Assembly (NCBI RefSeq): GCF_019263705.2
Contig: NZ_JADQDK010000001.1
Span: forward strand, 3,596,001-3,660,000
Length of the DNA stretch: 64,000 nt
Direction: 5' to 3'
Source: Pseudonocardia abyssalis
GTDB lineage: Bacteria > Actinomycetota > Actinomycetes > Mycobacteriales > Pseudonocardiaceae
This document shows positions 29,673-57,786 of the stretch, piece by piece. Every line of letters begins with the position of its first letter. Position 1 is the first letter of the stretch. The position numbers and the translations under genes were made by a program. Under the pieces are notes generated by a model that did no database searches, was not told the DNA's origin, and saw only the letters and a program-made list of their open reading frames with translations.

Positions 29673-30596
29673 TCACATCGCGCGGTAGTCGCGCGGGGAG
29701 AAGCGGGGGCCGAAGCGGGGGCGGCGGAAACCGCTGACCTCGACGTACCGCACCGCGCGCTGGCGCTGGGGCACGTAGGGCGCGAGCACCTCGAGCATCC
29801 CGGCGTCGTCGAGCGGGCGGCCGAGGAGTGCCCAGCCGACGACGGTGGGGATGTGGAAGTCGCCGAAGCTGACGGCGTCGGGGTCGCCCCAGACGCGCTG
29901 GGCCACCTCCGCGGCGGTCCAGACGCCGATCCCGGGGACCCGGCGCAGCAGTTCGCGTCCGGCCGAGCCGCCCAGCTCGGCCGCGTTCTCCAGCCGGTGC
30001 GCGACGGCGGCGCAGGACAGGATCGCGCGGCGCCGGGCCGAGTCGACGCCCGCACGGTGCCACTCCCAGTCGGGCACGGCTCGGATCCGGTCCGGGGTGG
30101 GCGGTACGCGCATGCCGGGCGGGGTCGGCCCGGGCGGGTCGTCGCCGAAACGGCGGCACAGCTCGCGCCACGACCGCCGGGCCTCCGTGCCGGTGACCTT
30201 CTGCTCCAGGATCGCCGGCACCAGCTGGTCCCACACCCGCCGCGAGCTGCCGAAACGCAGGCCGGGATGCCGCCGGTGGGCGTCGGCGACGAGCGGGTGG
30301 TGGGCCACGAACTCCTCGGGCCGGTCGTCCGCACCGAGGAGCGCGGGCAGCCCGTCGAGCGACCACTGCGCCCCCGCACCCCACGCCCTGGCCAGCACCG
30401 AGCCGTCGGCGCGGCGGCGCAGCAGCGTCGTCACGGGGCCGTCGGGGGTGGTGCCGACCAGCCAGACCCCGTCGTCGTTGCGCTGCCAGGTCGGGTCGCC
30501 CGCGCCGCGGCGCAGCGGGGCGAGGACCCCGACGAGGTCGACGGTGAACTCCGGCGTCCACTCGCGGCGCAGCGGAGGGGCGGCGGCGTCAGGCAT
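29673..30596 (-). CDS. AlkA-like DNA-3-methyladenine glycosylase (HhH-GPD)
   Basis: 307 residues. The HhH-GPD motif is LLRRVPGIGVWTAAEVAQRV, followed by SFGDFHIP, where the Asp is the catalytic residue. EQKVTGTEARRSWRELCRRF is the preceding helix typical of this superfamily. It would remove alkylated bases. ATG 30596 overlaps the stop of the nucleotidylyltransferase by 8 bases, a coupling of DNA repair to envelope genes that is probably incidental. Confidence 0.87.
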   Translation of the reverse strand: MPDAAAPPLRREWTPEFTVDLVGVLAPLRRGAGDPTWQRNDDGVWLVGTTPDGPVTTLLRRRADGSVLARAWGAGAQWSLDGLPALLGADDRPEEFVAHHPLVADAHRRHPGLRFGSSRRVWDQLVPAILEQKVTGTEARRSWRELCRRFGDDPPGPTPPGMRVPPTPDRIRAVPDWEWHRAGVDSARRRAILSCAAVAHRLENAAELGGSAGRELLRRVPGIGVWTAAEVAQRVWGDPDAVSFGDFHIPTVVGWALLGRPLDDAGMLEVLAPYVPQRQRAVRYVEVSGFRRPRFGPRFSPRDYRAM

Positions 30597-42346: not shown

Positions 42347-42856
42347 GTGTCCGTCGTCGAGTCGGTGCTGGCCCAGATCCCGCAGCCGTACCGGTCCGTC
42401 GCGATCAAGCACCGCGAGCTGATCAAGTTCGCGATGGTCGGGGGCACCACCTGGATCATCGACACGGCCGTGTTCCTGCTGCTCAAGAACACCGTGCTGA
42501 TCGAGAAGCCGCTCACCGCGAAGATCATCGCGGTGCTGGTGGCCACCATCGCGTCCTACGTCCTCAACCGCGAATGGTCCTTCCGTACCCGCGGCGGCCG
42601 TGACACCCACCACGAGGCGCTGCTGTTCTTCCTGGTCAGCGGCGTCGGGGTGGCCGTCTACACCGCCCCGCTGGCCGTGTCGCGCTACCTGCTGCACCTC
42701 AGCGTGCCCGATGTGAGCCTGTTCACGCAGGAGGTCGCCGACTTCGTCAGCGGCCAGATCATCGGCGTCCTGCTCGGCATGGCGTTCCGCTGGTGGGCCT
42801 TCCGCCGCTTCGTCTTCCCCGACGAGGACGTGCGCCGCCAGGCCCCCGAGGCCTAG
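42347..42856 (+). CDS. GtrA-family membrane protein
   Basis: 169 residues, four hydrophobic helices (VGGTTWIIDTAVFLLLKN, LTAKIIAVLVATIASYVLN, LLFFLVSGVGVAVYTAPLAV, SGQIIGVLLGMAFRWWAF) with the GtrA signatures NREWSFR and FRRFVFP. Family members help flip lipid-linked sugars or aid arabinogalactan assembly (Rv3277, Rv3789). GTG start. Its TAG stop lies in the CTAG where the downstream IS inserted and is preserved. Confidence 0.92.
   Translation: MSVVESVLAQIPQPYRSVAIKHRELIKFAMVGGTTWIIDTAVFLLLKNTVLIEKPLTAKIIAVLVATIASYVLNREWSFRTRGGRDTHHEALLFFLVSGVGVAVYTAPLAVSRYLLHLSVPDVSLFTQEVADFVSGQIIGVLLGMAFRWWAFRRFVFPDEDVRRQAPEA
42852..42856. repeat. Left target-site duplication of the IS (CCTAG)
   Basis: CCTAG immediately before the element; repeated at 43925-43929. 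It contains the gtrA stop codon on the plus strand and the transposase stop codon on the minus strand. Confidence 0.85.
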
Positions 42857-43812
42857 CTGTTCTGTCCCGTGAGGTTGGGGACTCGGGTGGCGGGTGGGCC
42901 GCCGATCGCGGTGTGTCCGCGGTGATGGTTGTAGTAGTGCAGCCAGTCGGGCAAGGCGGCTCGTCGGGCGGTCTCGGTGCGGTAGGGCTGGGCGTAGGCC
43001 CATTCGTCGAGCAGGGTGCGGTTGAACCGCTCGACCTTGCCGTTGGTTTGGGGCCGGTAGGGGCGGGTCCGTTTGTGGACGGTGTCGGTGTTGTGCAGGG
43101 CTTGGGCGAAGTCGCGGGAGCGGTAGCAGGACCCGTTGTCGGTCAGGACGCGGGCGATGTTCTCGATGCCTTGTGCGTGGAACCAGGCCGCGGCGCGGGC
43201 CCAGAACTGTGCCGCGGTGGTCTTGCGCTCGTCGGGCAGGATCTCGGTGTAGGCCAGGCGTGAGTGGTCGTCCAGGGCGTTGTGCAGGTAGCTGTAGCCG
43301 ATCTTTCGGCTACCTCTGTTGCGGCGGCCAGCGGCGCGGCCGAGGGTCTTGTGGCCGCCGCCGTCGGGGATGTTGCCCAGCTTCTTGATGTCGACGTGGA
43401 CCAGGTCACCAGGCTGTTTGTGTTCGTAGCGGCGGACGGTCTGGCCGGTGGTGCGGTCGAGGTGGGCCAGACGGGCCATGCCGAAGCGGGTCAGGACCCG
43501 GTGCACGGTGGAGGAGGCGATGCCGAGCAGGAACCCGATCCGGGCCGGTCCCCAGCGGCGCAGGACCCGGACTTTGATGATGCGTCGCTCGGTGCGGGTC
43601 GGGGTTTGGTTCGGGCTGTGGTGCGGGCGGGAGGAACGGTCGACCATCCCGGCTGGGCCTTCGGTGCGGTAGCGGCTTGACCAACGCTTCGCGGTGCCGA
43701 CTGAGACCTGGAACCGTTCCGCGGCGCGGCGCAGTGGCCACCCGTCCTCGACGACGCAGCGGGCGAGGCGGAGCCGGCCGGTCTCGGACAGCGGGGCGTT
43801 ACGGTGGAGCAC
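42853..43812 (-). CDS. IS481-family transposase
   Basis: 319 residues from GTG 43812 (LHRNAPLSETGRLRLARCV, the standard family start). HTH region WPLRRAAERFQVSVGTAKRW, second HTH GPARIGFLLGIASSTVHRVL. DDE triad intact: Asp in GDLVHVDIKKLG, Asp in RVLTDNGSCYRS, Glu in NGKVERFNRTLLDEW. The TAG stop codon lies outside the inverted repeat, in the CTAG target copy, so the host site supplies translation termination. Appears functional. Confidence 0.95.
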   Translation of the reverse strand: MLHRNAPLSETGRLRLARCVVEDGWPLRRAAERFQVSVGTAKRWSSRYRTEGPAGMVDRSSRPHHSPNQTPTRTERRIIKVRVLRRWGPARIGFLLGIASSTVHRVLTRFGMARLAHLDRTTGQTVRRYEHKQPGDLVHVDIKKLGNIPDGGGHKTLGRAAGRRNRGSRKIGYSYLHNALDDHSRLAYTEILPDERKTTAAQFWARAAAWFHAQGIENIARVLTDNGSCYRSRDFAQALHNTDTVHKRTRPYRPQTNGKVERFNRTLLDEWAYAQPYRTETARRAALPDWLHYYNHHRGHTAIGGPPATRVPNLTGQNS

Positions 43813-43924
43813 GAGGGCCTCCTTGGGTCGGGTGCAGATGTCGCTATCCACACCGGACCTGGAGGCCCTCCCTTACGCCAAGATCATCTGTCGCGTGTCG
43901 TTCTCAACCTCTGTGGGCAGTACA
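42857..43924. mobile_element. Complete IS481-type insertion sequence
   Basis: Terminal inverted repeats 42858-42882 (TGTTCTGTCCCGTGAGGTT...) and 43900-43924 match at 18 of 25 positions. Outside them the pentamer CCTAG is present on both sides (42852-42856 and 43925-43929), a target duplication centred on CTAG. IS481 of Bordetella is known to insert at NCTAGN. One transposase gene fills the element. About 1.07 kb, typical for the family. Confidence 0.92.
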
Positions 43925-43929
43925 CCTAG
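43925..43929. repeat. Right target-site duplication of the IS (CCTAG)
   Basis: CCTAG immediately after the element, matching 42852-42856. On the minus strand it supplies the TAG stop of the adjacent glycosyltransferase gene. Confidence 0.85.
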
Positions 43930-45113
43930 GGCGGCCCGAGCTCCAGGTCGGCGTGGCCGAACGCGAACCCGTCGACGTCGGCGCGGGTGGGCTGGCGGCG
44001 GGCGCGGCCCAGCGCCCGGGTGCTGCAGGCCGTGGCGACCTCCGTGTCGCCGCGGCGCAGCACGACGGTGGCGAGGTCGCCGTCGACGAGCGCGCGGACG
44101 GCGGCCCCCACCGCCCACCGCGGCAGCGGGCCCGCGACCCGCATCCGGACGCGCGCCCGCAGGAGCTGGTCGGGGCTCCACCGGTCCCCGATCTCCATGT
44201 CGTGGTGCTCCTGGTCGCGCAGCGACGACGCCACCAGTGCCGCCCCGGGACCCGGCTCGGTCGTGACGAGCACGTCCGGCAGCCCGCCGGGCGGGCCGCC
44301 GCGGCGCGTGCCGGGTTCCGGGATCAGCTCGGCGAGCCGGGTCCGCTCGCGGTCCTTCTCCGCGTCCTTCCCCGCTCCCCCGCGCAACGCCCAGTCCGGG
44401 CCGTCGTGCCAGGCCACCGCGGAGCGCTCGTGCACCAGGACCGCGCCGTTGTTCCAGGCCCGGTAGGCCAGGTCCCAGTCCTCGCCGCCGTAGCCGACGA
44501 ACCGCTCGTCGAAGCCGCCGATGTCGTCGAACAGGCTGCGCCGGCACGCGAGCACCGCGCTGATGACGAACCGGAAGGACGTGCCGTCGGCGTCGAGGAG
44601 GTCGCGGGTCTCGGCGTAGCCCTTCCGCAGCCAGGCGGGCTCGGGCAGCTCGGGGAGCGTCCGCGGGTCGGTGCCGGGCGGCAGGCCGGTGAGGTCGGCG
44701 TGCCGACGGCGCCCGACGGCGAGCACGTCGGAGCACCGGGCGACGCGCGCCGTCAGGCGTTCCAGGAAGTCGGGCTCGGGCACGGTGTCGGCGTCGAGGA
44801 ACACCAGCACCTCGCCGCTCGTGGCGGCGACCCCGAGGTTGCGCGCGGCGGCGGCCCGGAACCCCAGGTCCGCCTGGGTGACGACCCGCACCGGCGGGCC
44901 ACCGGTGGGTACCTCGGGCGGCGGGTCCGACCCGTCGTCGGCGATCACGATCTCGACCGGTCGCAGCGTCTGGTGGCACAGCGCGTGCCAGGTGCGGGCG
45001 AGCTGCTCGGGCTGGCGGTAGTGCGCCACGACGACGCTGACCTCCGGCCGCGGGACCGGGTGCTCGTCGAGCAGGTCGTAGCGGTTGCCCGGCACGAGGA
45101 CGTCGGTCAGCAC
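43926..45113 (-). CDS. Family 2 glycosyltransferase with C-terminal extension
   Basis: 395 residues. GT-A domain: VSVVVAHYRQPEQLARTWHA, IADDGSDPP, DxD motif VLVFLDADTVPEPDFLERL, and the GT27/galactosyl-type C-terminal motif FVGYGGEDWDLAYRAWNNGA. About 130 extra residues follow, from AGKDAEKDRERTRLAELIPE, with a beta-rich tail of unknown role. GTG start overlaps the upstream glycosyltransferase stop by 7 bases. Its TAG stop is in the IS target duplication. Last gene of the leftward arm of the glycan cassette. Confidence 0.87.
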   Translation of the reverse strand: MLTDVLVPGNRYDLLDEHPVPRPEVSVVVAHYRQPEQLARTWHALCHQTLRPVEIVIADDGSDPPPEVPTGGPPVRVVTQADLGFRAAAARNLGVAATSGEVLVFLDADTVPEPDFLERLTARVARCSDVLAVGRRRHADLTGLPPGTDPRTLPELPEPAWLRKGYAETRDLLDADGTSFRFVISAVLACRRSLFDDIGGFDERFVGYGGEDWDLAYRAWNNGAVLVHERSAVAWHDGPDWALRGGAGKDAEKDRERTRLAELIPEPGTRRGGPPGGLPDVLVTTEPGPGAALVASSLRDQEHHDMEIGDRWSPDQLLRARVRMRVAGPLPRWAVGAAVRALVDGDLATVVLRRGDTEVATACSTRALGRARRQPTRADVDGFAFGHADLELGPP

Positions 45114-46036
45114 GCGAGGACCCTCCGGTAGAGCGCGACGTGGTCGGCCCCGGCGGTGCAGCGCAGCGGCGCGCCGAGCCGGGTGTGGGCGGGGTCGGCC
45201 AGCGCGTCGGTGACGTCCAGCGTGCCGTAGACGATCACCGCGCCGGGACGGCGGGTGGCCTGCTCCCGGACGTACGGACCGCTCGCCGCGAGCGGGCGGC
45301 GCCCGCACCCCCACCAGGTGGCCAGCGTGCCGCTCGCGCTGACGGTCCGCCCGGGCACCACCGGCACCGTGACGGCCCGGGCCGCGGCGGCGAGGTCGGC
45401 GTCGCTCAGGGCCCCGGTGACGACGAGGTCCACGCCCGCTGCCGCGGCCCGCGCGCACAGCTCCGCGACCAGCGGGCCGTGCCCCGGCGACGGTCCGCCC
45501 GCGGCCACCACCCGGGGCCGCGACGGGTGCCGGGCCGCGGCGTCGAGGACGTCGGCGTGGCCCTTGCCCGGATAGACGAAGCCGAGGACGCCCAGCGTGG
45601 GGCGGTCGGCCCACACCGGCACCGCGCCGCCGTCGACCGGACGCGGCACCGGCAGCTCGACGACCGTCGCGACCCGTCCGGAGAACGCTGCGACCTTCGC
45701 CGCCTCGTGCTCCGCGGACACGACGACGGCCTCGCAGGCCGCGACGACACGCGCGTACCCCGCGGTGCGCCGCGCGTCGCGGGCCGGGTCGGGATCGGCA
45801 CCGGGCACGTCGTGCAGGGTCACCACGAGCGGGCGCCGCACGGTCGCGGCCCACGCGGTGAACGCGTCGGCGGCGGAGGCGATGTCGGGGCCCCACAGGG
45901 CGTCGGTGAACTGGGCGTGCACGAGATCGGGCCCGGCCGGACCCACCCCGTGCTCCGCGACGCGGGCCGCCAGGAGCGCGGCGTGCCGGACCACCCCGTG
46001 CCCGGCCGGGCCGGGGGCGACCGTCGCCACCCTCAT
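45107..46036 (-). CDS. GT-B (family 4-like) glycosyltransferase
   Basis: 309 residues. N-terminal MRVATVAPGPAGHGVVRHAA is the GT4 glycine-rich opening; VTLHDVPGADPDP, PTLGVLGFVYPGKGHADVLD and VVPGRTVSASGTLATWWGCG correspond to the acceptor loop, donor-domain start and C-terminal donor region. The E-x7-E motif is replaced by VSASGTLATWW, so donor use may be unusual. ATG overlaps the upstream stop (ATGA). Confidence 0.78.
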   Translation of the reverse strand: MRVATVAPGPAGHGVVRHAALLAARVAEHGVGPAGPDLVHAQFTDALWGPDIASAADAFTAWAATVRRPLVVTLHDVPGADPDPARDARRTAGYARVVAACEAVVVSAEHEAAKVAAFSGRVATVVELPVPRPVDGGAVPVWADRPTLGVLGFVYPGKGHADVLDAAARHPSRPRVVAAGGPSPGHGPLVAELCARAAAAGVDLVVTGALSDADLAAAARAVTVPVVPGRTVSASGTLATWWGCGRRPLAASGPYVREQATRRPGAVIVYGTLDVTDALADPAHTRLGAPLRCTAGADHVALYRRVLAC

Positions 46037-47040
46037 GCCGCGACCGACCGGTACACCGCGGCGTGCACCGCCGCGATCCCCTCCCGCTGCACGCGGCGCT
46101 CCTCCGGGTCGGCCCGCCACGCCGGGCGCTCGTCGTGGGCGCGGCGCACCGCGGCCCGTAGCGACTCGACGTCGAGGTGCCGCTCGTCGTGGCCGTAGAG
46201 CAGGCACGGCGCCTGCTCGGCGTAGAACCCGCAGTCGGGGGCGAGCACCGCGGTGCCCAGGTCGTGGCAGGCCTCCAGCCAGCCCGAATGGGTGCCGAAG
46301 CGGTACGGCAGGACCGAAAGGTCGAGGCCGGTGAGGTAGTCCCACAGGTCGTCGTCGGAGAACGGGGGGTGCACCCGCACGTCGACACCGGGGAGGGCCG
46401 CCGCGACGGCCCGGCCCCGCGCGTCGTCGTGCGCGTCGACCCGCAGCCGCGCGCCGGGCAGCTCCGCGACCGCGTCGGCCAGGGCGCGGGCCACCGGCAG
46501 CGGGTCTGCGTTGGCGCGCACGCTCTTCGCATGCATCCCCACGACGAACCCGTCGTGGGGCGGGCGGGGTGCCGCGATCCGGTCGGGTCCCACGACGTGC
46601 GGGTGCGGCACGACCGTCGCGGCGCGCCCCCAGCGCCGCGCGATCTCCGCCGCGGCCCCCGGGGTGAGGGTGAGCAGGGCGTCGGCGGCGGGGACGAGGA
46701 CGCCGAGCGCGGCGTCGTGGGCCGCCGGGTCGGCGTGGTGCGGGTTGCGCAGGTCGTGGACGGTCACGACGAGCGCCTTCCCGGTGTCGCGCACGGCGGC
46801 GGCCAGCGCGGTGAGGTCCGCCGGGCTGCGGTCGTCGTAGCCGAAGTGGACGTGCAGGACGTCGAACTCGGCGGCGTGCGCGCGCACCCAGGACGGGTCG
46901 AGCATCGGCGGCGGCCACCACTGCCCGGCCGGGACACCGGCGACGGGCGGGTCCGGGAGGCGCACGACGCCGTCGCGGGACCCGGGGTGCGCGAGGTGCC
47001 GCACGTAGACGTGACCTGCGGGGACCGACGCGATGCGCAC
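46033..47040 (-). CDS. GT-B (family 4-like) glycosyltransferase
   Basis: 335 residues from GTG 47040 (RIASVPAGHVYVRHLAHPG). FDVLHVHFGYDDRSPADLTA and VVTVHDLRNPHHADP belong to the N-terminal Rossmann domain; VVGMHAKSVRANADPLPVAR, LDLSVLPYRFGTHSGWLEAC and LGTAVLAPDCGFYAEQ to the donor domain. First gene of the leftward three-gene unit; 45 bases separate it from the divergent WcbI-like gene. Stop overlaps the next start (ATGA). Confidence 0.8.
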   Translation of the reverse strand: MRIASVPAGHVYVRHLAHPGSRDGVVRLPDPPVAGVPAGQWWPPPMLDPSWVRAHAAEFDVLHVHFGYDDRSPADLTALAAAVRDTGKALVVTVHDLRNPHHADPAAHDAALGVLVPAADALLTLTPGAAAEIARRWGRAATVVPHPHVVGPDRIAAPRPPHDGFVVGMHAKSVRANADPLPVARALADAVAELPGARLRVDAHDDARGRAVAAALPGVDVRVHPPFSDDDLWDYLTGLDLSVLPYRFGTHSGWLEACHDLGTAVLAPDCGFYAEQAPCLLYGHDERHLDVESLRAAVRRAHDERPAWRADPEERRVQREGIAAVHAAVYRSVAA

Positions 47041-47085
47041 CGGACCGGGTGCCCCGTCGCGCCCGCTCCCAACCGCCGGAGCAGC

Positions 47086-47988
47086 ATGCGTCACGTGGAC
47101 CCCGGACGCCGACGCCATTACGGCGACTTCTACGACGGCGTCGACGGCCCGCTCGCCCTGGTGCACGGCAACTGCCAGGCCGAGTCGCTGCGCGTGCTGC
47201 TCGCCGGGTCGCCGACGTTCGCGCCACGGCCGGTGCGGATCCCCCCGGTGCACGAGCTCACCGCCGACGACCTCCCGCACCTGCACGCCCTGCTCCCCCG
47301 CACGACGGTGCTGCTGAGCCAGCCCGTCCGCGACGGGTACCGCGACCTGCCGCTGGGCACCGCCGAGCTCACCGCCCGCCTCGCGCCGGGCGCCCGGGTG
47401 CTGCGCTGGCCCGTCGTCCGGTACGCCGGGCTGCACCCGTGGACGGTGATCGTGCGGCACCGCTCCGACATGGCGGTGGTGCCACCCGTCGTGCCGTACC
47501 ACGACCTGCGTACCCTCACCGCCGCCGCCGGGCTCCCCCCCGCCGCGGCGCCGACCGCCGCGGCGTTCCGCGCTGCGGCCGACCTGACCGTCGCCGAGCT
47601 CGCGCAGCGCGAACGGGGCACCGACGTCGGTGTCTCCGACCTGCTCCGCGGCCTCGGCGTCGATGCCGCGCACACCCTCAACCACCCCGGCAACCCCGTG
47701 CTGATCGCCCTGGCCCGCCGCGTGCAGGCCGCGCTCGGGCTGCCCGCCGACGCCGAGGAACCGGGGCGCGCGCTGCTCGGCGGGATCCGCGCCCCGCTGG
47801 ATCCCTCCGTGCTCGCCGCGCTCGGGCTCGACGCACCGCCGCGGGAGCACTGGATCGTCGACGGCGTCCCGGTCGACGACGCGGAGGTCCGGGCCGCCCA
47901 GCTCGACTGGTACCGCACGCATCCGCAGTGGGTGGCGGCCGGTCTGGAGCGGCACGCGGAGCGGATCGTCCTGCTCGGCGGGGCGTGA
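47086..47988 (+). CDS. WcbI-like polysaccharide biosynthesis protein
   Basis: 300 residues. The opening ALVHGNCQAESLRVLLAGSP is the WcbI signature, whose GNCQ residues form the active or CoA-binding site in the Burkholderia capsule protein. HALLPRTTVLLSQPVRDGYR, RWPVVRYAGLHPW and NHPGNPVL further support the family. WcbI-type proteins are proposed acetyltransferases acting on surface polysaccharides. ATG with GGAG five bases upstream. It lies between the two arms of the glycan cassette. Confidence 0.82.
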   Translation: MRHVDPGRRRHYGDFYDGVDGPLALVHGNCQAESLRVLLAGSPTFAPRPVRIPPVHELTADDLPHLHALLPRTTVLLSQPVRDGYRDLPLGTAELTARLAPGARVLRWPVVRYAGLHPWTVIVRHRSDMAVVPPVVPYHDLRTLTAAAGLPPAAAPTAAAFRAAADLTVAELAQRERGTDVGVSDLLRGLGVDAAHTLNHPGNPVLIALARRVQAALGLPADAEEPGRALLGGIRAPLDPSVLAALGLDAPPREHWIVDGVPVDDAEVRAAQLDWYRTHPQWVAAGLERHAERIVLLGGA

Positions 47989-48068
47989 CCGGCGTCGCAG
48001 GCGTGGGTGGGGCCCGGACGGGGTAGACCACGGAAGCCCCCTAGCCCGCTGATCACCGGGAGTCACCC

Positions 48069-48092
48069 ATGCCCCGCTCCACCTCCCGTTGA
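48069..48092 (+). CDS. Possible seven-codon leader ORF coupled to the next gene
   Basis: ATG at 48069 with GGGAG six bases upstream encodes MPRSTSR and stops at TGA 48090-48092, overlapping the TTG start of the glycosyltransferase (TTGA). The glycosyltransferase itself has no visible RBS, so re-initiation from this ORF could drive it. A frameshift in the first codons of the larger gene is the alternative. Confidence 0.35.
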   Translation: MPRSTSR

Positions 48093-49153
48093 GCACCTAC
48101 CGCGTGGCCCTGATCGCCTCGGCCCGGTACCCGATCCGTGAACCGTTCCCCGGGGGGCTGGAGGCCCACACGTGGCAGCTCGCCTCCCGGCTGCGCGAGC
48201 GCGGCCACGAGGTCACCGTGTTCGGCGGCGCCGGTTCCGACCCCGCTCTCGACGTCCGCGAGATGGCCCCGCTGCCGGCGCTGTCGGCACACGCGCGCAG
48301 TGACGTGAGCATGCCCGCGGAGTGGTTCCTCGCCGAACACCACGCGTACCTCGGCCTGATGCTGGAGCTGGCCGCGCCCGACGCCCCGTACGACGTCGTG
48401 CACAACAACTCGCTGCACTACCTGCCGGTCGCGATGGGCCCGGCGGTCGTACGGCCGGTCCTCACGACGCTGCACACGCCGCCGACGCCGTGGCTGGAGT
48501 CGGCGGTCCGGCTGCCGCGCACCGCGTCGACCCCCCGGTTCGCCGCGGTCAGCCGCACCACCGCCGAGCAGTGGCGCGGTCTCGTCCCGGACATCCGGGT
48601 GGTGCGCAACGGCGTCGACACCGCGGCCTGGACACCCGGCCCCGGAGGCGACACCCCCGTGTGGTCCGGCCGGATCGTGCCGGAGAAGGGACCGGTCGAG
48701 TCCATCCGGGCGGCCCGCGCCGCCGGCACCGGGCTCCGGCTGGCCGGGCCCCGCCCCGACCGGGACTTCTACGACGCGGAGGTCGCCCCGCTGCTCGGCG
48801 ACGGCGTCGAGTGGGTCGGGCACCTCGACCACGCCGCGCTCGCCCGGCTCGTCGGGTCGGCGTCGGTGGCGGTCGTGGCGCCGTGCTGGGACGAGCCGTA
48901 CGGGCTGGTCGTCGCCGAGGCGCTGGCCTGCGGCACCCCGATCGCCGGGTTCGCCCGCGGGGCCCTGCCCGAGCTGCTCGACGACACCTGCGGGGTGCTC
49001 GCCGCCCCCGGTGACGTCGACGGCCTCGCCACCGCGATCCGCGCTGCGGCGGAGCTGGACCGCTCCGCCGTCCGTAGGCGCGCGGTGGAGTTCTGCTCGG
49101 TGCAGGCGATGGTCCGCGGCTACGAGGACCTCTACGACGAGCTCGCCGCGTGA
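48089..49153 (+). CDS. Family 4 glycosyltransferase
   Basis: 354-residue retaining GT-B enzyme. N-terminal IASARYPIREPFPGGLEAHT, acceptor side DVVHNNSLHYLP, donor domain VRNGVDTAAW, VWSGRIVPEKGPVESIRAAR, and the E-x7-E motif in CWDEPYGLVVAEALACGTPI. Start TTG 48089 (no nearer ATG/GTG keeps the opening strand). First gene of the rightward six-gene unit; the stop overlaps the next gene's GTG by 4 bases. Confidence 0.88.
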   Translation: MSTYRVALIASARYPIREPFPGGLEAHTWQLASRLRERGHEVTVFGGAGSDPALDVREMAPLPALSAHARSDVSMPAEWFLAEHHAYLGLMLELAAPDAPYDVVHNNSLHYLPVAMGPAVVRPVLTTLHTPPTPWLESAVRLPRTASTPRFAAVSRTTAEQWRGLVPDIRVVRNGVDTAAWTPGPGGDTPVWSGRIVPEKGPVESIRAARAAGTGLRLAGPRPDRDFYDAEVAPLLGDGVEWVGHLDHAALARLVGSASVAVVAPCWDEPYGLVVAEALACGTPIAGFARGALPELLDDTCGVLAAPGDVDGLATAIRAAAELDRSAVRRRAVEFCSVQAMVRGYEDLYDELAA

Positions 49154-50130
49154 TCGCCTACTACGTGCACCACCAGGGCAGCGGTCACCTCCAGCGGGCC
49201 ACCGCGGTGACGGCGGCGGCCCGCGCGGCGGTCGTCGGGCTCTCCTCGCGGCCCCGCCCGGAGGGCTGGAGCGGCGAGTGGGTCGAGCTGCCCGGTGACA
49301 GCGACGGCGCCGTCGACGACGTGACCGCGGGCGGCACCCTGCACTGGGCCCCGCGCCGCCACCCCGGCCTGAGCGAGCGGATGCGGATGATCTCCGAGGT
49401 CGTGGCGCGCGCCCGGCTGGTCGTCGTCGACGTGTCGGTGGAGGTGGCGCTGCTCGCGCGGCTGCACGGTGTCCCGGTGGTGGTGCTGGCCCAGCCGGGC
49501 GACCGCACCGACCGCGCCCACCGCACGGCCTACGACCTCGCCGACCGGCTGCTCGCACCGTGGCCCGAGCGCCCGTCCGACGGCTGGCCCGCCGGGTGGA
49601 CCGCCAAGACCGTGCACCTGGGGGCGCTGTCCCGCTTCGACGCGCACCCGGTGCCGCCGCCCGGTGACCCGCGCCGTGTGCTCGTGCTCTGGGGATCCGG
49701 CGGGCTCGACGTCACCTCAGCCGACCTCGCCGCCGCCGCGGCCGCGACGCCCGACCGGCACTGGGTCGTCGCCGGGCCGTCCGGGACCGGCGGGCCGCCG
49801 AACCTGACGTGGCTGGGCTGGGTCGACGACGTCTGGGCGGAGCTGTCGGGTGCCGGGATCGTCGTGACGCACGCGGGACAGAACGCGCTCGCCGAGGTGG
49901 CCGCGGCCCGTCGACCGGCCGTCGTCGTGCCGCAACGGCGGCCGCACGGCGAGCAGGCGTCGACCGGCCGGGCACTGCACCGGGCCGGGATCGCCGTCAC
50001 CGCCTGGCCGGACCCGGCGGCGTGGGCCGCCCTGCTGGAGCGGGCGGGTGACGGCTCGGCGTGGTCGGGGTGGTCGACCGGCGACGGGGCCGCGCGCGCG
50101 GCCGCCGTGCTCGACGAGCTGGCTGCATGA
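49150..50130 (+). CDS. MurG/GT28-like glycosyltransferase
   Basis: 326 residues. MIAYYVHHQGSGHLQRATAV resembles the MurG/GT1 opening loop with GSGHLQR; the C-terminal half has RVLVLWGSGGLDVTS, LTWLGWVDDVWAELSGAGIV and VTHAGQNALAEVAAARRPAV, typical of UDP-sugar binding. GTG start within the upstream stop (GTGA); stop overlaps the next ATG (ATGA). Confidence 0.83.
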   Translation: MIAYYVHHQGSGHLQRATAVTAAARAAVVGLSSRPRPEGWSGEWVELPGDSDGAVDDVTAGGTLHWAPRRHPGLSERMRMISEVVARARLVVVDVSVEVALLARLHGVPVVVLAQPGDRTDRAHRTAYDLADRLLAPWPERPSDGWPAGWTAKTVHLGALSRFDAHPVPPPGDPRRVLVLWGSGGLDVTSADLAAAAAATPDRHWVVAGPSGTGGPPNLTWLGWVDDVWAELSGAGIVVTHAGQNALAEVAAARRPAVVVPQRRPHGEQASTGRALHRAGIAVTAWPDPAAWAALLERAGDGSAWSGWSTGDGAARAAAVLDELAA

Positions 50131-50957
50131 GACCGCCGACCGTCGCCGTCGTCACGATCACCCGCGACCGCGACGCCCACCTGCACCGCCAGCGCGTCGG
50201 GCTCGCCGCGGACCCGCCGGACCGGCACGTCGTCGTCGGGATGGGGGTGCGGCCCGCCCTCGCCGACGTGCCCGGCGCGCCGCCGGTGACGGTCGTCGAG
50301 GTCCCGGTCCCGGACTCCGGTCTGCCATTGGCCGCGGCCCGCAACGCCGGTGCGGCCGCCGCCGACGCCGACCTGCTCGTGTTCCTCGACGTCGACTGCA
50401 TCCCCGCACCCGCCATGCTGCGTCGCTACGCCGACGCCGTCCGCCGCGTCGACGGGCCCGCGCTGCTGTGCGGGCCCGTGCACTACCTGCCCCCGCCCCC
50501 GGACGGCGGCTACCCGGTCGACGGCCTCGCCGCCCTCGCCCCGCCGCACCCCGCCCGCCCCGCCCCGCCCGACGGCGAGATCGTCGCCGAGACCCGGTTC
50601 GCGCTGTTCTGGTCGCTGTCCTTCGCCGTCACGGCGGCCACCTGGACGGCGCTCGGCGGCTTCTGCACCGACTACACCGGCTACGGCGGCGAGGACACCG
50701 ACTTCGCCTGCGCCGCACAGGACGCCGGGGCCGGGCTGTTCTGGGTGGGCGGCGCGGACGCGTTCCACCAGCACCATCCCCCCGCCCGGGAGACCCCCGC
50801 GCGGATCGCGGAGATCGTGCGCAACGCGCGGCTGTTCCACCGCCGCCGCGGCTGGTGGCCGATGACCGGCTGGCTCGACGACCTGGCCGCCCGCGGTGTC
50901 GTCGTCTTCGACCCCGATCGCGGCGTCCTGCACCTCACCCCGGGAGGTCCCCCGTGA
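50127..50957 (+). CDS. Family 2 glycosyltransferase
   Basis: 276 residues. VAVVTITRDRDAHLHRQRVG, LAAARNAGAAAADADLLVFL, DxD motif LDVDCIPAPAMLRRYA and galactosyl-type motif YTGYGGEDTDFACAAQDAGA. Like the gene at 43926 it belongs to the galactofuranosyl/chondroitin-type GT2 group with a C-terminal GGEDxDF. ATG overlaps the upstream stop, and the stop overlaps the next GTG. Confidence 0.88.
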   Translation: MRPPTVAVVTITRDRDAHLHRQRVGLAADPPDRHVVVGMGVRPALADVPGAPPVTVVEVPVPDSGLPLAAARNAGAAAADADLLVFLDVDCIPAPAMLRRYADAVRRVDGPALLCGPVHYLPPPPDGGYPVDGLAALAPPHPARPAPPDGEIVAETRFALFWSLSFAVTAATWTALGGFCTDYTGYGGEDTDFACAAQDAGAGLFWVGGADAFHQHHPPARETPARIAEIVRNARLFHRRRGWWPMTGWLDDLAARGVVVFDPDRGVLHLTPGGPP

Positions 50958-51874
50958 CCACGCTGCTCGACGCCGCTCCCCCCGGGCCCGCGCCCGACCT
51001 CGCCGACGCCGTCCGCCAGCCGCTGCCCCTCCCCGGCCACGGCGACACCCCCGGCCGCTGGCGGGCCCTGGCCGCGTGGGGCCGCACCGACCTCGTCCTC
51101 GCCCGGCTGGCCGAGGGCCACACCGACGCGCTGGCGATCCTCGCCGAGGCCGGGTGCACCCCCGTCCCCGGCGCGCTCTACGGCGTGTGGGCGGCCCGGT
51201 CCGGCGGGATCGGTGCCGAGCTGCACGACGGGGCGGTGCGCGGGACCGTCCGGTTCTGCTCCGGCGCGCACCGGCTCGACCGGGCCCTGGTGATCGCCGA
51301 CGCGCTGATCGTCGACGTCGACCTGCGCGATCCCCGCGTCCGCCCCGTCGAGGGCACCTGGAATCCGGCCGGGATGGCGGCGAGCGACAGCGTCGACGTC
51401 GAGTTCTCCGCGGTGCCGGCCGAGGTCACCGTGGGCCCGCCGGGCTTCTACACCGGCCGTCCGGGGTTCTGGTGGGGCGGCGGCGGGGTCGCGGCCGTGT
51501 GGCTGGGTGGCGCAGCCGGGGTCGTCGACGACGTGCGCGACGCCGCGGGCACCGACCCGCACCGCCTCGCCCACCTCGGCGCCCTGCACACCGCGCTGGC
51601 GACGACCGACGCCCTGCTCGCCCGTACCGCGGCCGCGATCGACGCCGACCCGGTCGCCGACCACACCACCGCGGTCTGGACCGCCCGCGCCGCCGCCGAG
51701 CACCTGTGCCGCACGGTCGGTGACCTCGCCCCCCGCCTCGCCGGGGCCACCGTGCTCAGCCGCCACGGCCGCCTCGGGGCGCGCCTCGCCGACCTCGGCG
51801 TCTACGTCCGCCAGCACCACGCCGAACGCGACCTCGCCGCCCTCGGCGCTCGGGTCGTGGAGGAGGAGTCATGA
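50954..51874 (+). CDS. Acyl-CoA dehydrogenase-like protein in glycan operon
   Basis: 306 residues, shorter than true acyl-CoA dehydrogenases (about 380). Middle beta-domain remnants GTVRFCSGAHRLDRALVIAD and VDVEFSAVPAEVTVGPPGFY, then GFWWGGGGVAAVWLGGAAGV and a helical C-terminus. The N-terminal helical domain is reduced and no catalytic Glu can be placed. It may be a non-catalytic or specialised FAD protein acting on a lipid or sugar carrier. Coupled on both sides (GTGA, ATGA). Confidence 0.75.
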   Translation: MTTLLDAAPPGPAPDLADAVRQPLPLPGHGDTPGRWRALAAWGRTDLVLARLAEGHTDALAILAEAGCTPVPGALYGVWAARSGGIGAELHDGAVRGTVRFCSGAHRLDRALVIADALIVDVDLRDPRVRPVEGTWNPAGMAASDSVDVEFSAVPAEVTVGPPGFYTGRPGFWWGGGGVAAVWLGGAAGVVDDVRDAAGTDPHRLAHLGALHTALATTDALLARTAAAIDADPVADHTTAVWTARAAAEHLCRTVGDLAPRLAGATVLSRHGRLGARLADLGVYVRQHHAERDLAALGARVVEEES

Positions 51875-53121
51875 CCGGACCCTGGTTGCGGGACCCGCCG
51901 CCGCGCCCGCTCGACCTGGGCATCCTGGGCCACCGCGTGGTCGTCGTCGCCGCCCATCCCGACGACGAGACGCTCGGCGCGGGCGGCCTGATGCGGGCCG
52001 TGCACGAGTCGGGCGGGCAGGTCGAGCTCGTCGTCGCCACCGACGGGGAGGCCGCGTTCCCCGACCTCGACGGGCCGGCCCGCGACGCGCTGGCCGCCAC
52101 CCGCCGTCGCGAGACCGACGACGCACTCGCCGCGCTGGGCCTGTCCGGCGTGCCGGTGCACCGGCTCGGAATGCCCGACTCGGCCCTCGACGCCGACACG
52201 TTGGCCACCGCTCTGGAACCGCTGCTGCGCGACGCCGACGCCTGGGTCGCGCCCTGGGCGGGAGACCCGCATCCCGACCACACCGCCGCCGGGCTCGCCG
52301 CCGCGGCCGCCTCCCCGGTGACGGCCACGGGCTGGACGTACCCGATCTGGATGTGGGCGTGGCTGGAACCGGACGACCCGTCGATCCCGTGGTCCCACGC
52401 CCACGCCCACCCCCTCGACGAGACCGCGCGGACGGCGAAGCGGCGGGCGCTGGCCTGCTACGCGTCGCAGACCGGCGGCCCGGCCCCGATCGTGCCGCCC
52501 GACGTGCTCGCGCACTTCGACACCGGCACCGAGGTCGTGTTCCGCACCCCGCCGGGTGGATCCGCCCCCCGGGAGCGGTTCGACACGCTCTACGCCGGCG
52601 ACGACGGCGACCCCTGGGCGACCCGCACCAGCTGGTACGAGCGACGCAAGCGTGCGGTGCTGCTGGCCAGCCTGCCCCGGGAGCGGTACCGGCACGCCGC
52701 CGAGCCCGCGTGCGGGACCGGGGCGCTCACCGTCGAGCTCGCCGAGCGCTGCGACCGGCTCGACGCCTCCGGCTTCTCCCCGGCCGCGGTCGCCGCCACC
52801 CGGGGCTCGGTCGACGGCGTCCCGGTGATCCGGGCGGCACTGCCCCACCCGGACGCCCTGCCCGACGGGATCGACCTCGCCGTCGTCAGCGAGGTCCTCT
52901 ACTACCTCGACGACGCCACGCTGGCCGCCACGGTCGACCGCCTCGCCGACGCGGTGCTCCCCGGCGGCGACATCGTGATCGCGCACTGGCGCGGCTGGCC
53001 CGCCGAGGCACCGCGCGACGCCGAGGCCACCCACCGCGAGCTGCTCGACGACCCGCGCTTCGTCCCGCTCGTCACGCACGTCGACGAGGACTTCCTGCTG
53101 CACGTGCTGCGGCGCGCGTAG
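51871..53121 (+). CDS. Bifunctional PIG-L deacetylase / SAM-dependent methyltransferase
   Basis: 416 residues, two domains. Residues 1-230: LmbE/PIG-L zinc deacetylase with AHPDDE (28-33), DGEAAFPD and WAGDPHPDHTAAG (third ligand His near 138). Residues 245-416: NodS-like methyltransferase starting SWYERRKRAVLL, with AEPACGTGALTVELAERCDR as the SAM loop and VVSEVLYYLDDATL as motif IV. It probably removes an N-acetyl from a sugar intermediate and methylates the product. ATG overlaps the upstream stop. Confidence 0.9.
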   Translation: MTGPWLRDPPPRPLDLGILGHRVVVVAAHPDDETLGAGGLMRAVHESGGQVELVVATDGEAAFPDLDGPARDALAATRRRETDDALAALGLSGVPVHRLGMPDSALDADTLATALEPLLRDADAWVAPWAGDPHPDHTAAGLAAAAASPVTATGWTYPIWMWAWLEPDDPSIPWSHAHAHPLDETARTAKRRALACYASQTGGPAPIVPPDVLAHFDTGTEVVFRTPPGGSAPRERFDTLYAGDDGDPWATRTSWYERRKRAVLLASLPRERYRHAAEPACGTGALTVELAERCDRLDASGFSPAAVAATRGSVDGVPVIRAALPHPDALPDGIDLAVVSEVLYYLDDATLAATVDRLADAVLPGGDIVIAHWRGWPAEAPRDAEATHRELLDDPRFVPLVTHVDEDFLLHVLRRA

Positions 53122-53780
53122 TGGACGCCGTAGGGGTCCTCGTCCCGGCCCGCGACGAGGAGGACCGGGTCGCCGCGTGCCTGCGCAGCGTCCTCGCCGC
53201 GTTCCCCCCGGGCGTCGCGACCGCGGTGGTCGTCGTCCTCGACCGCTGCACCGACCGCACCGCCGAGCGCGTCCCCGCCGGCGTCGACGTCCTGACCAAC
53301 GCCCACCCGTCGAGCGTCGGGGAGCTGCGCGACCGCGGCGTGCGGCACCTGCTGGGTCGCCTGGCCGGCCACCGCCCGGAGCGGACCTGGCTGCTCAGCA
53401 CCGACGCCGACACCGTCGTCGGCCCGGACTGGGTCACCGACCACCTCCGCCACGCCGCCGCGGGCGCGCACGCCGTGGCCGGGCTGGCCGATCTCGACAC
53501 GCCGGTCGACGGGGCCTACGCGCGGCTCGTCCGCTCCGGCATCCGGGCCGACGGCCACACCCACGTCTACGGGGCCAACCTCGGCGTCCGCGCCGACGCC
53601 TACCTCGCGACGGGCGGCTTCCCGGCCGCGGTGCACGGCGAGGACCACGCGCTGGTCGGGATGCTGCGGGCGGGCGGGTTCCGGGTCGTCACGGCACTGG
53701 ACGGACGGGTCCGCACGAGCGGGCGGACCGTCGGCCGCGCCCCCGGTGGCCTGGCCGACCTGCTCGCCGGGCTGGTGTGA
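53121..53780 (+). CDS. Family 2 glycosyltransferase
   Basis: 219 residues. VGVLVPARDEEDRVAACLRS, VVLDRCTDRTAER and DxD-type LLSTDADTVVGPDWVTDHLR, then GANLGVRADAYLATGGFPAA and HGEDHALVGMLRAGGF. It resembles GT2 enzymes paired with PIG-L/methyltransferase fusions. GTG start overlaps the upstream TAG by one base. Last gene of the rightward cassette; a hairpin follows. Confidence 0.86.
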   Translation: MDAVGVLVPARDEEDRVAACLRSVLAAFPPGVATAVVVVLDRCTDRTAERVPAGVDVLTNAHPSSVGELRDRGVRHLLGRLAGHRPERTWLLSTDADTVVGPDWVTDHLRHAAAGAHAVAGLADLDTPVDGAYARLVRSGIRADGHTHVYGANLGVRADAYLATGGFPAAVHGEDHALVGMLRAGGFRVVTALDGRVRTSGRTVGRAPGGLADLLAGLV

Positions 53781-53824: not shown

Positions 53825-55651
53825 ATGCCCACCCCGCAGACCCCCGCCACGGGCGACCAGCCCCGCCGTCCCACCGTCGCCGACCACATCGTCGACCGGC
53901 TGGCCTCCTGGGGCGTCCGGCACTACTACGGCTACCCCGGCGACGGCATCAACGGCATGACCGCGGCCCTGCAGCGCCGCGGGGACACCCGGTTCGTGCA
54001 GGTGCGCCACGAGGAGACCGCGGGGTTCGCCGCGACCGCGCACGTCAAGTACGGCGGCGGGACGATCGGGGCCGCGCTGGTCACGTCGGGTCCGGGCGCG
54101 GTGCACCTGCTCAACGGCCTCTACGACGCGAAGCTCGACCACCAGCCGGTCGTCGCGCTCGTCGGCCAGACGGCGCTGACCGCACAGGGCGGCGGGTACT
54201 ACCAGGAGGTCGACCTCCTCTCGCTCTACAAGGACGTCGCGGGCTTCCAGGCCCAGCTCGACGACCCCAGCCAGGTCCGCCACCTCGTCGACCGCGCCTG
54301 CCGCACCGCGCTCGCGCACCGCACCGTCGCCGTGCTCGTGCTGCCCAACGACGTCCAGGACCTCGACGCGGTGCTCGACCCGCCGCAGACCCACGCCCAC
54401 TACGCCACCTCCAACGCCCCCAGCACCCGCTCGACGGTGCCGCCGGAGGCCGACCTGCGCGCCGCCGCCGAGCTGCTGCGCGGCGGGGAGAGGGTGGCGA
54501 TGCTCGTCGGGCAGGGCGCGCTCGGCGCCGAGGCCGAGGTGGCCGCGATCGCCGCCCGGCTCGGCGCCGGGGTGGCCACCGCGCTGCTCGGGATGACCGT
54601 CGTCGACCAGCGCGAGCCGTGGGTCACCGGCGCACTCGGGCTGCTGGGCACCACCCCCAGCTCGTACCTGATGAAACACTGCGACCGGCTGCTGATCGTC
54701 GGCTCCAACACGCCCTACAGCGAGTTCTACCCGCCGGAGGGCCGCCCGGCCGTCCAGATCGACATCGACGGCGCACAGATGGGGATGCGGTACCCGACTC
54801 AGCTCAACCTCACCGGGGACGCCGCCCCGACGCTGCGTGCCCTCGACGCCCTGCTCGTCGACCACACCCCGCCGACGGCGTGGCGCGCGGACGTCGCGGA
54901 GCGGACCGCGTCGTGGCGCACGGGTCAGGTCCAGGTCGCGCACCAGGACGCCGAGCCGCTCAACCCGCAGCGGACGGTCACCGAGCTGGACGACCGGCTG
55001 CCCGCCGACGCGATGGTCGCGGTCGACTGCGGCACCGTGACGGCCTGGTACGCGCGGCACCTGCACGTGCGGCCCGGGATGCTGGCGTCGCTGTCGGGGA
55101 CGCTGCTGTCGATGGGCGGGGCCATGCCGTACGGGATCGCCGCGAAGTTCGCGCATCCCGACCGCCCGCTGTTCGCGCTGATCGGCGACGGCGCGATGCA
55201 GATGAACGGCGTCAACGAGCTGATCACGGTGGCGAAGTACTGGCGCGAGTGGGCCGACCCCCGCTTCGCCGTGCTGGTGCTCAACAACCGCGACCTCGCG
55301 TTCGTCAGCTGGGAACAGCGGGCGAGCGAGGGCACGCCGAAGTTCGACGACAGCCAGGACGTGCCCGACGTCGACTACGCGGCGTGGGCGCGGAGCCTGG
55401 GGCTCGACGGGATCCGGATCGACGACCCGGCGCAGGTCGGGCCGGCGTGGGAGGCCGCGCTGGCCGCCGACCGGCCGTTCGTCATCGACGCGGTGGTCGA
55501 CCCCGCCGAGCTGATGATCCCGCCGCAGTTCACCCGCGAGCAGGCGACCAACATGGCGACGTCGATCATCCGGGGCGACTCGGACTGGCGCGGGATCCTG
55601 CGCCGCGGCCTCCCGTCGGCGGTGGCGACACTGCTCCCGCACCGGTCCTAG
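53825..55651 (+). CDS. Pyruvate-oxidase-like thiamine pyrophosphate enzyme (YdaP type)
   Basis: 608 residues with the three-domain layout of ThDP decarboxylases/oxidases. The catalytic Glu is in VRHEETAGFAATAHVK (near 63); central FAD/nucleotide-fold domain LVGQGALGAEAEVAAIAARL; ThDP-Mg motif GDGAMQMNG to LVLNN in the last third. VTSGPGAVHLLNGLYDAKLD is diagnostic for the pyruvate oxidase/acetolactate synthase group. Related to B. subtilis YdaP; substrate probably pyruvate, but glyoxylate or others are possible. ATG 53825. Confidence 0.9.
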   Translation: MPTPQTPATGDQPRRPTVADHIVDRLASWGVRHYYGYPGDGINGMTAALQRRGDTRFVQVRHEETAGFAATAHVKYGGGTIGAALVTSGPGAVHLLNGLYDAKLDHQPVVALVGQTALTAQGGGYYQEVDLLSLYKDVAGFQAQLDDPSQVRHLVDRACRTALAHRTVAVLVLPNDVQDLDAVLDPPQTHAHYATSNAPSTRSTVPPEADLRAAAELLRGGERVAMLVGQGALGAEAEVAAIAARLGAGVATALLGMTVVDQREPWVTGALGLLGTTPSSYLMKHCDRLLIVGSNTPYSEFYPPEGRPAVQIDIDGAQMGMRYPTQLNLTGDAAPTLRALDALLVDHTPPTAWRADVAERTASWRTGQVQVAHQDAEPLNPQRTVTELDDRLPADAMVAVDCGTVTAWYARHLHVRPGMLASLSGTLLSMGGAMPYGIAAKFAHPDRPLFALIGDGAMQMNGVNELITVAKYWREWADPRFAVLVLNNRDLAFVSWEQRASEGTPKFDDSQDVPDVDYAAWARSLGLDGIRIDDPAQVGPAWEAALAADRPFVIDAVVDPAELMIPPQFTREQATNMATSIIRGDSDWRGILRRGLPSAVATLLPHRS

Positions 55652-56568: not shown

Positions 56569-57681
56569 CTACTGCAGCGCCAGGGTCCGGACGGCCTGGC
56601 GCGCGGCGGCCCCGCCGGCGTCGAGCGCGATCCGCATCGCGGTCGGCACGTCGAGGTCGTCGAGGAGGGCGGCCCGGACGGCCGCGACGTCGGCATCGGA
56701 GCCGCCCCCGGTGGCCGCGGCGCGGTAGAGGCGGTCGAGCCGCTCGGCGGCGACGTCGAGGTCCTTGGCCCGGTACTCCCAGTCGGCCGCCCACTCGCGG
56801 TCGAGCAGCAGCAGCCGCAGGGCCGCACCGGGACGGTGCGCGAGCAGGTCGCCGACGAGCACGAGGTTGCCGGTCGACTTCGCCATCTTCGCTCCGTCGA
56901 CGTGCACGGTGCCGATCGGCATCCGGCGTCGCGCGTACGGCACGGCGCCGGTGGCCGCGGTGGCCAGTGCCACCTGGTAGGCGTGGTGCGGGAAGGCGAG
57001 GTCGGCGCCGCCGATCAGGACGTCGACGGTGCCGCCGAGCGTGGCGAGCGCCATCGCCGCGCACTCGGCGTGCCAGCCCGGCCGGCCGGGGCCCCAGGGG
57101 CTCGGCCAGGACGGGCCGGCGTCGTCGGCGGGCCACCAGACCGGCACGTCGAACGGGTCGTCGCGGCGCGGGTCGTCCGGGTCGTCGCCGTTGGCGCGGG
57201 CCAGCGCGAGCGCGGTGTCGGCGTCGAGCCCGGCCGCGGCGGGCACGCCGGATCCGCGGAACCACACCCCGCCGCCGCGCTCGTAGGCCGCGCCCGCCCC
57301 GAGCAGCGCCGCGGCGAGGGCGACGACGTGGCGGACGTGGTGGCGCGCGTGCGGCTCGTGGTCGGGCCGCCGGACGTGCAGCGCGGCGAGGTCCTGCTCG
57401 ACGGTGAACTCCTGCGAGAGCCCGAACTCGTCGTAGGGCTTCCCGCGCTCCGCCGCCGCGCGGGTGAGCTCGTCGTCGATGTCGGTGACGTTGCGCGCGA
57501 CGACCGTGTCGGTGCCCGTCATCCGCATCACGCGGGCGACCGTGTCGGCCCAGACGAACGTCGACGCGTGGCCGAGATGGGTGACGTCGTAGGGCGTGAT
57601 GCCGCAGACGTACAGGCGGGCGGGGACGGTGAGCGGCACGGGGGCACCGCACAGCGTGAGGATCGGGTCGGGTGCGGTCAC
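56569..57681 (-). CDS. Cysteinyl-tRNA-synthetase/MshC-like cysteine ligase
   Basis: 370 residues, class I synthetase fold. Zinc ligands Cys26 (YVCGITPYD), Cys207 (GWHAECAAM) and His232 (FPHHAYQ) are present, HIGH is HLGH (35-38) and KMSKS is KMAKS (265-269). The length lacks CysS's anticodon-binding region and fits MshC, which joins cysteine to GlcN-inositol in mycothiol synthesis. It is not beside the usual mshC neighbours, so it may be a paralogue with another amine acceptor. GTG start at 57681. Confidence 0.78.
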   Translation of the reverse strand: MTAPDPILTLCGAPVPLTVPARLYVCGITPYDVTHLGHASTFVWADTVARVMRMTGTDTVVARNVTDIDDELTRAAAERGKPYDEFGLSQEFTVEQDLAALHVRRPDHEPHARHHVRHVVALAAALLGAGAAYERGGGVWFRGSGVPAAAGLDADTALALARANGDDPDDPRRDDPFDVPVWWPADDAGPSWPSPWGPGRPGWHAECAAMALATLGGTVDVLIGGADLAFPHHAYQVALATAATGAVPYARRRMPIGTVHVDGAKMAKSTGNLVLVGDLLAHRPGAALRLLLLDREWAADWEYRAKDLDVAAERLDRLYRAAATGGGSDADVAAVRAALLDDLDVPTAMRIALDAGGAAARQAVRTLALQ

Positions 57682-57786
57682 CTGCCCATCCTGGCAGGAT
57701 CCGGGCGCCGACCGTTCGGCGACGGATACCACGTGCACGACGCACTGTGCGTAGTGCTCTGATCACCCGATCGATACCCTCCGACG

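Follow-up and report, generated by a model that had tools for sequence, protein, structure and literature searches.

The block of genes discussed here lies at positions 43926-53780 of the window, by which we mean the whole 64,000-nucleotide stretch analyzed (C1:3596001-3660000 of the 6.3-Mb assembly of Pseudonocardia abyssalis). A first, sequence-only reading had described it as a single two-armed glycan cassette of about 10 kb around a WcbI-like gene. Our analysis confirmed a tight block of ten genes, three on the minus and seven on the plus strand, with the span from first to last gene as earlier noted. It is not a single cassette, however: two modules with separate distributions meet in it, and each of them stands alone elsewhere. 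Module A consists of a core of four genes (GTup, GT4, MurG-like and GT2b), often accompanied by WcbI, GTmid and GT2L, and module B of an acyl-CoA dehydrogenase (ACAD)-fold flavoprotein, a PIG-L deacetylase, a NodS-like methyltransferase (MT) and GT2c. The enzyme families are ordinary and the locus is composite; its B half is a common stress-linked gene set for which we found no matching description. Seven glycosyltransferases (GTs) are encoded, one more than the six first counted.

43926-45113, minus strand: GT2L, GT2-type glycosyltransferase with Glyco_transf_7C, module A accessory (PF00535, 78.1 bits; PF02709, 36.6 bits)
45107-46036, minus strand: GTmid, divergent GT4-like protein, module A accessory (PF13579, 18.3 bits, under the cut-off)
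46033-47040, minus strand: GTup, GT4-like, first gene of the left arm, module A core (window copy without a Pfam match)
47041-47085, no strand: divergent intergenic region of 45 nucleotides (nt) between the arms, also 45 nt in the relative L066
47086-47988, plus strand: WcbI, putative coenzyme A (CoA)-dependent acyltransferase of the WcbI family (PF18588, 225.5 bits, cut-off 29.2)
48089-49153, plus strand: GT4, glycosyltransferase, module A core (PF13439 and PF00534 over the cut-off)
49150-50130, plus strand: MurG-like, GT-B glycosyltransferase, module A core (PF04101, 25.1 bits, cut-off 22)
50127-50957, plus strand: GT2b, GT2-type glycosyltransferase, module A core (PF00535, 26.9 bits, cut-off 23.3)
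50954-51874, plus strand: ACAD-like, ACAD-fold flavoprotein-like protein of 306 amino acids (aa), module B
51871-53121, plus strand: PIG-L/MT, PIG-L deacetylase fused to a NodS-like methyltransferase, module B (PF02585, 84.6 bits, cut-off 28.2; PF05401, 34.3 bits, cut-off 24)
53121-53780, plus strand: GT2c, small GT2-type glycosyltransferase of 219 aa, module B (PF00535, 36.5 bits)

Seven of the eight within-arm junctions overlap by 1-7 nt, namely by 7 and 4 nt on the left and by 4, 4, 4, 4 and 1 nt on the right, where WcbI is followed by a gap of 100 nt. GT2L starts with GTG at 45113, and the GTG start of GTup at 47040 fits the alignments of its homologues, which begin at residue 1. Elsewhere in the window 11/33 same-strand junctions of our gene calls overlap by 1-15 nt. 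The cassette is packed more densely than this background (one-sided Fisher p 0.008) but not uniquely; given how often genes overlap in this high-GC window, its packing is genuine without being unusual. Pfam cut-offs are passed by WcbI, GT4, GT2L, GT2b, GT2c, the MurG-like protein and PIG-L, and the MT part passes the NodS family PF05401. The window copies of the ACAD-like protein, GTmid and GTup pass none, and none of the ten proteins reaches an NCBIfam cut-off. Many of the listed GTup homologues carry PF13439, and GTmid repeatedly keeps company with WcbI and GT2L across module A loci.

Module B is a broad cluster across Actinomycetota and Pseudomonadota. A phylum sample of 296 genomes was searched for ACAD homologues, 39 genomes had a match at E 0.001, and 20 neighborhoods were fetched. 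The module is complete (ACAD, PIG-L, MT and GT2c together) in 17 of these, mostly with PIG-L and MT as separate genes; the incomplete loci are L042 (no MT or GT2c match) and L053 and L055 (no PIG-L match). Module A genes are also present in L052 and L053, and a GTup-like gene in L041. Similarly, all four B functions occur in 62 of the 80 named loci, which were taken from 438 matches in a genome scan (PIG-L 69/80, MT 68/80, GT2c 68/80) and include Streptomyces, Mycobacterium, Rhodococcus, Actinoplanes, Massilia, Xanthomonas, Delftia and Paraburkholderia. The recurrence of the ACAD-like, PIG-L/MT and GT2 set, which the sequence-only reading had named as a check, is borne out. Module A genes were matched in only two of the named loci, L115 (GTup) and L127 (six genes), and in L121 ACAD, PIG-L and MT form a single open frame. 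In a class sample the flavoprotein is present in 76/393 genomes, the window's own included; its nearest named homologues come from Pseudonocardia petroleophila (91%) and P. hydrocarbonoxydans (84%). Module B also lies, at least partly, on plasmid records (L259, L261, L263, L265, L266, L269-L271) from Acinetobacter, Comamonas, Pandoraea, Legionella and Cupriavidus; conjugative or mobilizable types are among these records, and two are chromosome-sized. The window's own genome carries a second PIG-L/MT fusion (L005:10506-11585, 66% identical), with no ACAD or GT2 gene adjoining it on reading by eye.

Module A has its own distribution. All seven A genes, with no B gene within about 20 kb, are found at nine WcbI loci (L068, L070, L071, L096, L100, L103, L105, L107, L108), and L069 (G321) has the seven A genes with an ACAD about 11 kb from WcbI, just beyond the fetched stretch. 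Partial versions occur at L073, L097, L098, L102, L109 and L110, and WcbI alone at L067, L101, L104 and L106. The arm layout of the window is common to L066, L068 and L096; elsewhere WcbI has GTmid and GT2L as partners, and GTup has the remaining three core genes. GTup loci without WcbI show the GTup, GT4, MurG-like and GT2b core (L245-L249 and others), which also lies on a Rhodococcus qingshengii plasmid, adjoining GAF, ANTAR and SigB/F genes. Two side observations concern these loci. At L073 the WcbI match is in two pieces with its middle missing and GTmid is cut, an apparent decay in a relative that is also without module B. A Stf0-type sulfotransferase gene (PF09037; one scanned) adjoins GTup at L253, L254 and L255, which come from three members of a single family; the founding Stf0 enzyme uses trehalose as a substrate.

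The two modules nevertheless meet repeatedly. The close relative L066 has the same ten genes in the same order, contrary to the possibility, named in the earlier note as a refutation, that no other genome conserves the order; in G260 (L052/L075) all ten occur shuffled. A and B share a locus in the window, L066, L127, L052/L075, L053, L099, L111 and L112, with L053 lacking WcbI, L111 contributing WcbI, GTmid and GT2L, and L112 WcbI only. In L099 the A core, MT, ACAD and GT2c form one gene run; the same holds for L053 except that a photolyase is interposed, and in L127 a SigB/F-type sigma gene sits between A and B. On a tree of 66 ACADs linkage is dispersed: the eight A+B-linked rows need six changes, at least four of them forced by well-supported branches. 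Each change could be either a gain or a loss, and the label shows some clustering (19/500 shuffles as low). An IS481-type transposase gene (PF13011, PF00665) at 42853-43851 adjoins the left arm in the window and none lies beside the L066 cassette, so that the left flanks of the two differ.

Co-occurrence extends to whole genomes, as those with module A usually carry module B, mostly unlinked. In the phylum sample an ACAD is present in 12/14 genomes with a strong GTup match (E < 1e-20) vs 26/281 others, in the class sample in 14/18 WcbI genomes vs 61/374 others, and among near relatives in 7/8 WcbI genomes vs 22/51 others, the exception being G327 with WcbI in two pieces and GTmid cut. The window's own genome was left out of the GTup count, ACAD matches of the phylum scan were counted down to E 0.001, and the negatives include fourteen weak GTup matches (E 7e-9 to 7e-4) and one weak WcbI match (G384). 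The GTup-positive set covers seven families, every one with at least one double-positive genome.

What the proteins may do was evaluated family by family. WcbI is a member of PF18588, and its Cys30 aligns in a GxCQ motif with Cys14 of the solved WcbI (4bqn alignment), which is bonded to CoA according to an excerpt of the report on that protein; the same excerpt gives acetyltransferase activity as undetected even for this founder (PMC4104973). The PIG-L domain belongs to PF02585 and its translation contains AHPDDE. AHPDD is the PIG-L deacetylase motif. Among narrower models, the MshB equivalog gives PIG-L 24.9 vs the 224.35 bits required, the NodS equivalog NF041650 gives MT 52.6 vs 300 bits, and the mycofactocin MftF equivalog reaches 86.6 vs 280 bits among the cassette proteins. 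The ACAD-like label stands as far as the fold is concerned, which the module B protein shares. Acyl-CoA dehydrogenases carry their catalytic glutamate in a YEG motif; here the position corresponds to V285 (MAFFT alignment with the window's true ACAD) or H288 (ungapped), with no conserved glutamate at either, and a near-invariant E291 (57/62) lies close by. In a fold comparison flavin mononucleotide (FMN) monooxygenases and true ACADs tie in Z, and the fold fits both groups equally; a profile comparison with the window's true ACAD aligned the beta domain only. Conserved in the homologues are H56 (62/62), S103 (61/62) and H289 (62/62). H56 and the serine of an FCSG motif align with TdsC, H289 presumably matches the last histidine of DszC, and the His/Ser/His set is a candidate active site of the kind seen in FMN monooxygenases.

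Beyond the earlier note, we found two settings in which module B recurs, general stress and trehalose. Members of 12 general-stress families occur at 8/20 module B loci of the phylum sample vs 0/19 control loci (20 were picked, one of them nonexistent and one short). Corresponding counts are 5/20 for A-only loci, 4/7 for A+B loci and 34/65 for named loci, the last being circular because the stress queries were drawn from the named loci and L127; it covers 65 of the 80 named loci, those under 15 kb and L127 being left out. Pfam scans included 142/157 phylum neighbors, 147/151 control neighbors and 147 of the first 149 on a longer list of named-locus neighbors (26/28 picked loci). The phylum-sample B neighbors include SDR 4, GAF 4, catalase 3, ANTAR 3, sigma-70 3 and SpoIIE 2, and none of those stress families is among the 25 commonest of the control neighbors from the same genomes; the named-locus neighbors include ferritin 4, GAF_2 3, OtsA-type 2 and ANTAR 2. 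In Rhodococcus rhodnii (L175), module B lies amid GAF, SigB/F, stress SDR and zinc alcohol dehydrogenase (Zn-ADH) genes, as judged by eye. A loose SigB/F motif (like GTTT-N15/16-GGGTA) was found in 21/100 module B upstream regions vs 84/904 regions upstream of other called genes in 60 of those loci, 2.3 times as frequently; scanning four stretches of the window gave no such motif. An excerpt of PMC4694148 names MSMEG_1097 (GT2) and MSMEG_1771 (methylase) as SigF-dependent genes of M. smegmatis, which may or may not be module B genes. Next to the cassette, 44 nt past its end at 53825-55651, lies a gene for a pyruvate-oxidase-like thiamine-diphosphate enzyme (PF02776, PF02775, PF00205). It is absent from that place in L066, and similar enzymes are encoded at two WcbI loci and, in Mycobacterium, at several loci with module B.

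The trehalose setting emerges in Pseudomonadota, where 6/18 module B loci have trehalose-type genes (OtsA, OtsB or GH65); the 18 examined are L136, L145, L157, L170, L177, L185, L192 and the plasmid records L259, L261 and L263-L271. On a Comamonas antarctica plasmid record otsA-ACAD-PIG-L-MT-GT-otsB form one overlapping run, and Legionella lytica has otsB-GH65-PIG-L-MT-GT2-ACAD. Among the Acinetobacter plasmid records, the neighborhood of module B holds otsA in A. soli, and katE, otsA and otsB in A. ursingii. Massilia (L157) and Delftia (L177) likewise have an OtsA match next to the module, and near it in Cupriavidus basilensis are a maltosyltransferase annotation, katE, a PA2169-type protein and a topoisomerase IB. 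No trehalose-type genes were seen at the Pandoraea, Paracoccus, Methylobacterium (ACAD only), A. baumannii and C. campinensis loci, the last two records being unannotated there.

We propose that two modules, each conserved in its own right, join in this block and act in one pathway for a stress-associated oligosaccharide, a reading that in our judgment stands evenly between right and wrong. The genomic part is solid: which genes are present, their order and conservation, the A-B linkage within several families, the co-occurrence across genomes and the stress neighborhoods were all observed. As to the order of steps, the sugars, the acceptor, the methylation site, the type of oxidation, the regulation and the cellular place, we infer the following scheme. 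GT2c would add an acetamido sugar to an acceptor, PIG-L would strip the N-acetyl group to free the amine, the NodS-like domain would methylate the sugar, probably on the freed nitrogen, and the ACAD-fold flavoprotein would oxidize the edited amino sugar. The module A transferases (the four core enzymes, GTmid and GT2L) could then extend the product to an oligosaccharide, which WcbI may acylate. The predicted place of the enzymes is the cytoplasm or the cytoplasmic face of the membrane, the setting would be general stress, and trehalose is the leading candidate acceptor. At L053 and L099, where MT, ACAD and GT2c occur with no PIG-L match, the amine may come from elsewhere or be dispensable. A more specific version is put forward tentatively: starting from trehalose or one of its glycosides, module B would make an N-methylated, flavin-oxidized amino-sugar glycoside that serves as a stress protectant, and in some actinomycetes A would build this into a larger, acylated oligosaccharide.

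Several observations weigh against this pathway. The p value of 0.002 for the stress families at phylum-sample loci is optimistic because the 12 families were fixed after Pfam counts of the same 20 loci; 12/20 loci have no stress family, and in the window the pyruvate-oxidase-like gene is the sole stress-like neighbor. Genes otsA and otsB stand beside 0/20 actinobacterial phylum loci, a GH65 protein being present at one (L047). No PIG-L was found beside MT, ACAD and GT2c in L053, L055 and L099, and in two Cupriavidus loci PIG-L is not adjacent to the other B genes; deacetylation may therefore not always be part of the pathway. The Fisher tests for co-occurrence ignore relatedness, 26/38 ACAD-positive genomes are without a strong GTup match, and four complete WcbI-positive genomes (G243, G643, G465, G670) are without module B. 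The 19-residue hydropathy maximum is at most 1.52 in eight of the ten proteins, and the MurG-like protein and GT2c each have a hydrophobic stretch with a mean of 1.80, so membrane contact is possible and a soluble place less certain for these two.

Seven glycosyltransferases and a WcbI homologue in one cassette could also suggest a surface or cell-wall polysaccharide or glycolipid, whose repeat unit would be assembled on a lipid carrier and decorated before export machinery from other loci took over, all the more as the solved WcbI belongs to a capsule pathway according to the excerpted report (PMC4104973). We regard this as doubtful, since module B on its own sits amid stress genes and the gene lists, as far as read by eye, show no recurrent flippase, polymerase or phosphoglycosyltransferase next to A or B, for which no profile search was made. 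The sequence-only reading had invoked genes outside the block, a nucleotidylyltransferase at 30589, a ligase-like protein at 15893 and GtrA. None of them turned up when the genes in about 20 kb of L066, the only relative fetched that shares the cassette, were read by eye; GtrA was absent from every locus fetched by then, and no search was aimed at the genes at 30589 and 15893. Overall, the earlier interpretation is partly supported.

Another explanation is that A and B are unrelated pathways, often neighbors merely as co-regulated stress genes. A-only and B loci do share neighbors such as the Zn-ADH and stress SDR families, each module occurs alone, and the linkage on the tree may be gained or lost; genome-wide co-occurrence even when unlinked and the single overlapping gene runs in the window, L066 and L099 make this unlikely. 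The proximity of the cassette to an MshC/CysS-like gene (PF01406) in the window and L066 raised the idea of a mycothiol-like small-molecule pathway combining GT, PIG-L and this gene. It was rejected as highly improbable: among the loci fetched by then the gene stands beside the cassette only in these two and otherwise at two control loci (partial matches), and PIG-L scores far under the MshB cut-off. The gene in question, at 56569-57738, is one of three with PF01406 (cysteinyl-tRNA-synthetase-like) in the genome; of the other two, C1:5302429 looks like CysS from its score and C1:1672123 may be MshC.

If the proposed two-module pathway is right, so widespread a sugar pathway with ties to stress and an unexplained ACAD-fold enzyme would add something new to the stress physiology of bacteria and offer new chemistry for enzymology. 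Module B occurs on chromosomes and plasmid records, Pseudomonadota included, and its trehalose operon context names a candidate acceptor. A search of open-licence papers yielded none that we recognized as describing module B or the cassette, and, in line with the earlier note, no named pathway was found for the genes.

Comparison with known systems places the modules near several characterized ones. WcbI shares PF18588 and the cysteine match with the Burkholderia pseudomallei capsule protein (PDB 4bqn/4bqo) but has other partner genes. For the ACAD-like protein, the FMN monooxygenases TdsC, DszC and MsuC suggest a candidate function, although their chains are longer (386-402 aa vs 306 aa), and nitrososynthase and DnmZ match by sequence profile but are not among the 50 fold matches listed. 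In several Pseudomonadota module B lies inside or adjoining the trehalose operon otsA/otsB, whereas neither gene accompanies it at the actinobacterial phylum loci. NodB and NodS edit Nod factors by deacetylation, then methylation. The cassette differs in its PIG-L-type deacetylase and in an MT far under the NodS equivalog cut-off, but this MT matches NodS models and the logic of deacetylating and then methylating would be the same.

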